DNA of 64,000 nt from Natrinema salifodinae (lineage in GTDB: Archaea > Halobacteriota > Halobacteria > Halobacteriales > Natrialbaceae). The position numbers and the translations under genes are program-made. Shown piece by piece: positions 5,237-44,062 of the stretch. Position 1 is the stretch's first letter. The number at the start of each line of letters is the position of its first letter. Under the pieces are notes generated by a model. The model was not told where the DNA came from, did no database searches, and saw only the letters and a list, made by a program, of their open reading frames with translations. Location: the NCBI RefSeq assembly GCF_900110455.1, contig NZ_FOIS01000004.1, positions 310,001-374,000 on the forward strand. Direction: 5' to 3'.

Positions 5237-5995
5237 ATGGACATACGCGTACTCGGTCCGGGTCCAACTTCTCCATTCCTCAGCGCCCGCGACCTCTTCG
5301 AGACCGAACACGACCTCTCACTACCGGTCCACGTCCAGTTGCGGGACGATCCCGACGAACGGACCTGGGCTGCCCACTACGACGATCGCCACGTGCTAAA
5401 CATCTCCCGCCAGGCCGCCTCGTCGGCGATGGCCCGCGAACTCGCCCTCCACGAGTTCGCCCACATGGCCCGCCACGAACAGGAACACCCCTCCCACACG
5501 CAGTCGACCGAAGAGGTGCTCTATCTGGCGCTGGCCGGCAAGAGCGTCGAGCGGCGAAAACTCTCGCACTGCTACCAGATCGCCAACCACATGAAAGACA
5601 TCTACGCCGACGACATCACGCTCTCGGTCGGCCCCGGCGAGAAACTGCTCTCGTTTCTCGAGTCCGGCCTGGCGGCAGCCGTCGCGGATCGGCCCGAGAC
5701 ACCGTCCCGACCGGGCCTGCAGCGACTCTCCGCGAGCGCCGATCCGGAGATCACGGCGGTGAACGCGGCCTTCGCGCTGGCGCTGGCGGAGCGACACGAC
5801 CTCGTCGACGAGGACCACCGCCTGTACGACCTCGCGTACGCGGCCGCGATGGACGCGCCCGAAGTCGACTTCGAAGAGTTCAAACGCCGGTTCCGGGAAC
5901 TCGCCCGGGAACCCGACGCGAGCACCTACCGGCAGGTGCTAGTCGACGCGACCCGGTCGTACGTCGGCGGCGGCGCAACTCGCGCCGCCGACTGA
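5237..5995 (+). CDS. DUF5781 family protein with HExxH motif
   Basis: This 252-residue protein resembles the haloarchaeal family called DUF5781, which has no proven function. The visible feature is [10 protein letters not shown], an HExxH zinc-peptidase-type motif at H72-E73-H76. It is followed by a helical region with a glutamate-rich stretch (about 80-95) that could supply a third ligand. No signal peptide or membrane helix is seen, so it should be cytoplasmic. I chose the ATG at 5237 because residues after it ([14 protein letters not shown]) look conserved, whereas the upstream in-frame extension is Arg/Pro-rich, a composition typical of non-coding frames. A small cytosolic metallopeptidase role is inference only. 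Confidence 0.75.
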
Positions 5996-43447: not shown

Positions 43448-44062
43448 ATGCGTCTGTTCGTCAGCGTCGATCTCCCCGACGACCTCGCACAACCGGTCGC
43501 CGACCTGCAAGACGAGTTCGCCGAGGCGAGCGGGCTCAACTTCACGAACCCCGAGCAGGCCCATATCACGATGAAGTTCCTCGGCGACGTTCGAAAGAGC
43601 GGAACTCTTTCGAGCCAATCAGAATCGCAAAGCGATTCTGATGACGTGGGCGAGGACCGCGTCGACGACCTCAAGCGCGAGCTGTCCGCCGCCGTCGCGG
43701 ACGCGGGCGTCGACCCCTTCACCGTCCGCTACGGCGGGCTCGGTGTCTTCCCGAGTCTCGACTACATTAGCGTCGTCTGGCTGGGCGTCGAACGGGGCGG
43801 CGAGCAACTCACCAGGCTCCACGAATCCATCGAAGCGCGGACGACCGAGTTGGGCTTCGACCCCGAGGATCACGACTTCACGCCCCACGTCACCCTCGCG
43901 CGGATGGAACACGCCGGCGGGAAGGACCTGGTCCAGGACCTCGTCGAGGAGCGCGACCCGACGATCGGCGAGGCCCGCGTCGAAGAGGTGCGCCTGACCG
44001 AGAGCACCCTGACCGAAGACGGGCCGGTCTACTCGACGGTCGAGTCGTTCCCGCTGACGTGA
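43448..44062 (+). CDS. thpR: RNA 2',3'-cyclic phosphodiesterase (2H family) with palindromic insert
   Basis: This 204-residue enzyme opens 2',3'-cyclic phosphates on RNA. It has the two HxTx motifs: H39-I-T41 in HITMKFLG and H147-V-T149 in HVTLARM. Between GDV (residue 46-48) and EDRVDDL lies an extra 19-residue segment rich in Ser, Gln and Asp that family members lack. It is encoded by two adjacent perfect inverted repeats flanked by GACGT on both sides, and deleting 57 bases restores GDVGEDRVDDL. The insertion lies in a loop away from the catalytic motifs, so the enzyme is probably active. Confidence 0.93.
   Translation: MRLFVSVDLPDDLAQPVADLQDEFAEASGLNFTNPEQAHITMKFLGDVRKSGTLSSQSESQSDSDDVGEDRVDDLKRELSAAVADAGVDPFTVRYGGLGVFPSLDYISVVWLGVERGGEQLTRLHESIEARTTELGFDPEDHDFTPHVTLARMEHAGGKDLVQDLVEERDPTIGEARVEEVRLTESTLTEDGPVYSTVESFPLT
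43591..43642 (+). repeat. Twin inverted-repeat element inside thpR
   Basis: Two perfect hairpins lie end to end. The first has 9-bp arms 43591-43599 (TCGAAAGAG) and 43605-43613 with a 5-base loop. The second has 11-bp arms 43618-43628 (ATCAGAATCGC) and 43632-43642 with an AAA loop. The element is bracketed immediately by the direct repeat GACGT at 43586-43590 and 43643-43647. Element plus one repeat is 57 bases, exactly 19 codons. Codons such as CGA, ACT, CTT, TCA, TCT and GAT contrast with G/C-ending codons around it. Confidence 0.85.

Follow-up and report, generated by a model that had tools for sequence, protein, structure and literature searches.

Among the systems closest to the one analysed here, the Rickettsia palindromic elements (RPEs) of Ogata et al. 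(2000 and 2002) are, in the review section that covers them, palindromes of about 150 nt that lie in frame in unrelated housekeeping genes and encode a recurrent peptide (PMC10969869). That review, from 2024, describes the Rickettsia case and treats a similar mechanism in other prokaryotes as merely conceivable (PMC10969869). RPE-4 and RPE-6 have been equated with CGTC-tagged REPs, which that study reports from bacterial phyla only; the REP dimers are inverted pairs with 8–9 bp stems and 4–5 nt loops, and their intragenic copies encode ~20 residues (PMC3733652). REPINs are, in the part of the source used here, paired REP units mobilised by RAYT transposases (PMC3116915), and the PATEs of Haloquadratum are said, in the corresponding part of theirs, to derive from IS605-type ends and to include 52-bp terminal-only forms (PMC3119063). 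In-frame palindromic selfish DNA has so far been known mainly from Rickettsia and from the REPs of some other bacteria, and we found no description of archaeal in-frame palindromes in the open-licence literature. The insertion described below would now add the Archaea.

The insertion lies in the thpR gene of Natrinema salifodinae, within a 64-kb window, by which we mean the whole stretch of 64,000 nucleotides that was analysed. Its features are as follows.

43448..44062, + strand: thpR host gene (RNA 2',3'-cyclic phosphodiesterase / LigT family), 204 aa including the insertion; open reading frame, Pfam PF02834 and PF13563, orthologues in 29/29 Natrinema genomes
43588..43589, + strand: 5' CG, the sole target bases common to every insertion whose empty site is mapped; from the empty sites
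43590..43646, + strand: twin-palindrome insertion of 57 nt (TTCGAAAG...GATGACG), giving 19 extra residues within DVRKSGTLSSQSESQSDSDD; exact 57-nt gap in 26/29 orthologues
43591..43613, + strand: hairpin 1, TCGAAAGAG-CGGAA-CTCTTTCGA, 9-bp stem and 5-nt loop; perfect pairing, stem covariation
43618..43642, + strand: hairpin 2, ATCAGAATCGC-AAA-GCGATTCTGAT, 11-bp stem and 3-nt loop; perfect pairing, stem covariation
43643..43646, + strand: 3' end GACG (CGTC on the opposite strand), element-owned, its CG being a possible 2-bp duplication; occurs where the target has GG, not GA (mutS, tnpB)

A preliminary description of this DNA had reported two perfect hairpins, of 9 and 11 bp, back to back between GACGT pentamers, and both their coordinates and their pairing were confirmed, with the pentamers at 43586-43590 and 43643-43647. 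The reading frame stays open across the insertion to give the 204-aa protein, in agreement with the claim that the 57 bases leave the frame intact and add 19 residues, and the codons within the element are AT-ended, as stated there. The folding energy of the 62-nt stretch was −30.7 kcal/mol compared with a shuffled mean of −13.8 (z = −6.4), and an Rfam search of the element for a known structured RNA returned nothing credible. Within the 64-kb window, hairpin 1 had no other match with 3 mismatches (chance expectation 0.06), and hairpin 2 matched only its own reverse strand at 3 mismatches (chance expectation 0.00).

Could the host enzyme tolerate the added peptide? The protein is ThpR-like by Pfam (PF02834, E = 1.3e-22; PF13563, E = 2e-16), and in a structural model built with 25 sequences (mean pLDDT 71), residues 43-65 have pLDDT < 50. 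The insert is thus predicted to form an unstructured, disordered loop after the first catalytic motif, and because the peptide is modelled in this way, ThpR probably tolerates it.

The preliminary description took the insert for a small palindromic element inserted in frame and named two checks, empty sites of exactly 57 bases in thpR orthologues and further copies in the genome. Both bore it out. In 26/29 Natrinema genomes, the orthologue is shorter at the insertion point by exactly 57 nt (19 codons), and a DNA search of the genome itself, in which 150 of about 440 candidates were scored, found at least three further full copies, in purK, an acyl-CoA dehydrogenase (ACD) gene and an ABC transporter gene, at 94, 86 and 84% identity. 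All of the full copies (at least four, including that in thpR) lie in frame in unrelated genes, reading DVR(K/R)(S/T)...SExxxxSDD. Furthermore, a covariance model built from eight copies found matches in 29/29 Natrinema genomes, and class-wide (E <= 1e-8) in 212/292 Halobacteria genomes and 63/77 genera. The exact core pattern matched 17 times among about 85,000 prokaryote species, always in Halobacteria, so that this exact-pattern scan gave no sign of sequence kinship to RPE; nor did the pattern match anything in 2.9 million viral contigs that would suggest a viral origin.

Empty sites were mapped for ThpR, PurK, ACD, ABC, MutS and TnpB, the other hosts being recognised by an open frame and a family match. 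The empty sites lack exactly 57 nt in ThpR, PurK, ACD and MutS, and the TnpB insertion is 60 nt; the ABC copy of N. salifodinae is 54 nt, and all orthologues compared have the empty site. A 5-bp target-site duplication, as the preliminary description had it, looked plausible because the empty sites of ThpR, PurK and ABC read GACGT in most orthologues. At ACD, however, the empty target is GACGA and the filled 5' junction is GACGT, which shows that the 5' T is part of the element. The mutS site changes from GGCGAGG (a closest relative) to GGCG/TTCG...GGTGACG/AGG, and the tnpB site from CAGGCGTTG (Haloarcula marismortui) to GGCG/TTCG...GAGGACG/TTG (Halorussus halophilus), where slashes mark the junctions; here, the 3' GA is present despite GG in the target, which shows that it too belongs to the element. 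A duplication of five bases is thus rejected on the evidence of the empty sites in ACD, MutS and TnpB.

Judged from these junctions, all of which have just CG in common, the element carries its own GACG end and inserts at CG, with a preference for GACG and with a 2-bp duplication or none. On the right, nearly all copies finish in GACG, which reads CGTC on the opposite strand; on the left, the end is CGTT, CGGT, CGAT or CGTC. The layout consists of two inverted hairpins, a linker GCCAA/GCCCA and a terminal TGAKGACG; the hairpins are internal and near-terminal, and there are no terminal inverted repeats.

Hosts with an in-frame copy, as identified by Pfam or by clear orthology, include ThpR, PurK, ACD, the ABC transporter and NAD(P)HX dehydratase, as well as MutS, AOR, a P-type ATPase, ValS, TsaD/Kae1, AstE (AstE/AspA), an FAD oxidase, a Mo-co oxidase, a histidine kinase and TnpB, whose in-gene copies were confirmed by Pfam. 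One orientation and frame is used at 17/18 distinct sites, TnpB being read in a reverse frame, and nearly all in-gene copies give a Ser/Asp/Glu/Gln-rich peptide in this common frame, with predicted peptides such as SGTLSSQSESQSDSDD. As 4/6 frames of the element consensus are open, the frame bias points to selection for a polar peptide. The insert length in genes was 54, 57 or 60 nt in 27/27 copies, whereas outside recognised genes it was a multiple of three in 5/22 and another length in 17/22, chiefly the 55-nt intergenic copies of genus g13 and others like them. This contrast serves as supporting evidence only: an open frame was itself the criterion for recognising a gene, which makes the argument partly circular.

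Several individual copies deserve mention. The high-copy 55-nt intergenic version (TTCACGAGAGC...GATGACG) of genus g13 and its neighbours (L319, L321, L326-L328, L330, L331) reaches 18 matches per genome. One copy of 53 nt, in a metagenome-assembled genome (L213, about 5603-5660), contains an in-frame TAG and breaks a short-chain dehydrogenase; it is either a non-tolerated insertion or an assembly error. At L316 and L317/L351, two different MutS paralogues, from two species that belong to one genus, have the same element (identical by eye) at homologous positions, which suggests gene conversion or a strong site preference.

We then compared the stems among 18 copies from at least 15 different sites. 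Stem cells were paired in 95.7% of cases compared with 82.9% after shuffling (0/500 shuffles as high), 12/21 stem pairs showed changes on both sides, and slid stem alignments reached 44% pairing at most. Across copies, the stems are 8-11 bp and the loops 3-5 nt, in inverted pairs, and the loops are the most variable part of the element. Among thpR carriers, 18/19 third codon positions of the element are conserved compared with about 65-68% in the host gene, and in purK, the element shows one difference in 57 nt compared with 85% identity of the host gene. This excess conservation could be due to constraint, to conversion or to a recent insertion whose sources were alike.

Taken together, these data indicate that the thpR insert very probably belongs to a haloarchaeal mobile element that is non-autonomous, palindromic and protein-coding. 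In favour of this reading, the element occurs in multiple copies, its empty sites are exact, its target and 3' end are defined, its stems covary, and it lies in frame in many unrelated genes throughout the class. The insertion had also been called recent, and this part of the preliminary description holds only partly: the near relatives are empty, but two other species, G022 and G010, carry a thpR insertion at the same base. The three carriers are non-sister in a thpR and purK tree with weakly supported deep branches, and the site is empty in G011, the close sister of G010.

Such patchiness could also arise if an inert element had spread mainly by homologous recombination or horizontal transfer of gene segments bearing an old insertion, followed by exchange and loss. 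The ABC-transporter gene of N. salifodinae (G000:C2:916096-917742) agrees with this: it is sister to a carrier in another genus (g35) with 100% bootstrap, and the element and the host gene are equally diverged (89% and 89%), so that the insertion travelled with the gene, which is horizontally acquired. The ACD insertion likewise shares its unusual GACC/GGTC stems with Natronococcus jeotgali. On the other hand, the ACD gene itself groups within Natrinema, with no local similarity peak around the insert; the three ThpR carriers differ at nearly all loop bases and at just two other positions; and 17 gene sites in many families would need many separate insertion events in any case. We therefore regard transfer of gene segments as an unlikely, though by no means negligible, main route. 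The hairpins might instead be retained for a role in the host gene or its mRNA, for example in controlling translation or as a structured part of the coding sequence, with mobility secondary. The covarying stems and the better-kept synonymous sites of the element in thpR could be read in this way, as could the double changes that preserve pairing in a second purK insertion (see below). However, covariation between copies is equally expected if pairing serves transposition only, the host genes have nothing in common, the thpR insert is missing from most of the genus, and the ABC copy of N. salifodinae shows decay (3 nt deleted, pairs broken); a host function is thus improbable.

A classic cut-and-paste MITE, moved by a DDE transposase and duplicating 5 bp of its target (GACGT), would account for the GACGT on both sides in thpR, purK and abc. 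It is very improbable given that the ACD, MutS and TnpB empty sites share just CG and that the element has two internal hairpins in place of terminal inverted repeats. As for a chance indel or variable-loop expansion specific to ThpR, the enzyme probably tolerates the insertion in a loop after its first catalytic motif, but this very sequence recurs in other genomes and in genes unrelated to thpR, which rules this candidate out and leaves it a negligible probability.

If the insert is a mobile element, which enzyme could move it? Y1/HUH enzymes of the IS200/IS605 type carry out single-strand transposition, and the subterminal hairpins, the lack of a long duplication and the identity of the right-end tetranucleotide, GACG, with the preferred target sequence fit with this mode. 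Copies would move as single-stranded hairpin DNA, a HUH/Y1 (IS200/IS605 TnpA-like) enzyme acting in trans would cut after GACG at the element end and after CG/GACG in the target, and out-of-frame insertions would be removed by selection. An enzyme of this class is a serious though tentative candidate. Across the 29 Natrinema species, the number of matches correlates with that of Y1 transposase copies (rho 0.59; partial 0.58 after genome size; phylogeny uncorrected), which weakly supports it. Matches (up to 31) also occur in eight Natrinema genomes in which no Y1 gene was detected, and a CM search of 30 Y1-transposase loci found no autonomous parent with these two hairpins at its ends, only scattered copies, one of them inserted at the 3' end of an IS605 tnpA; because of both findings, the enzyme step is one that we infer.

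How does the element compare with the described systems? As the preliminary description had suspected, it resembles the Rickettsia RPEs, at least as the review section presents them, in its repeated in-frame insertion in unrelated genes, recurrent peptide and empty sites in orthologues; it differs in its archaeal host, its length of 54-60 nt compared with about 150 nt, its two short hairpins and its acidic Ser/Asp-rich peptide. With the head-head dimers of CGTC-tagged REPs, it shares 8-11 bp stems, 3-5 nt loops and inverted pairs, a right unit CGTC-ATCAGAAT... whose stem opens with two A-T pairs, ~20 residues encoded by intragenic copies, and no known dedicated transposase; unlike these dimers, in which the unit is always CGTC, its left unit is CGNT or CGTC, and a CG target and empty sites are defined for it (PMC3733652). 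REPINs, in the part of the source considered, are likewise mobile units of paired inverted REP hairpins, but here, we found no linked RAYT gene, the end is GACG/CGTC and not GTAG, and the element often lies in frame inside genes (PMC3116915). The Haloquadratum PATEs are the nearest archaeal elements, being haloarchaeal and transposase-free with near-end palindromes, no long target duplication and a short target oligonucleotide; the passages on them considered here mention no in-frame coding insertion (PMC3119063), and no IS605 ends matching the twin hairpin were found at the 30 Y1 loci. The haloarchaeal element is best read as close in mode to the Rickettsia palindromic elements and the CGTC-tagged REP dimers.

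In the haloarchaeal case, the empty sites are exact and many of the hosts are cultivable and genetically tractable, so that the mover of such elements, and the tolerance or use of the added peptide by enzymes such as Kae1, MutS and ValS, can be tested. It is possible, although on balance unlikely, that the family is class-wide and perhaps still active, repeatedly adding new acidic disordered loops to conserved enzymes and re-using the same base by precise excision or site-preferring reinsertion. In that case, the family would continually supply Archaea with protein variation.

Related insertions were seen at other places. The purK orthologues of eight other Natrinema species (L093-L097, L099, L101, L102) have a second, different in-frame twin hairpin of 48 or 51 nt, e.g., SGARSAPDDSSGRSPRES, elsewhere in the gene, which is patchy between sister species and shows double compensatory stem changes. 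Upstream of the Walker A motif, the ABC orthologues of five Natrinema species (L262-L265, L267) have another insertion, which is Ser/Arg/Glu-rich and 54-60 nt long (YGDREAERTTGESTEERRDSGD). In Natrinema sp. SYSU A 869 (G022), a twin hairpin lies at the tnpA 3' end of two IS605 copies (L280 and L295, about 1845-1908) and alters the TnpA C-terminus. Finally, transposase-like ORFs (IS6-like by eye; L136-L140, L162, L163, L167, L185 and others) in many Natrinema genomes contain a related twin hairpin, with the peptide DVHESxALVRPIRTxxVLRTA, immediately ahead of VAVDET.
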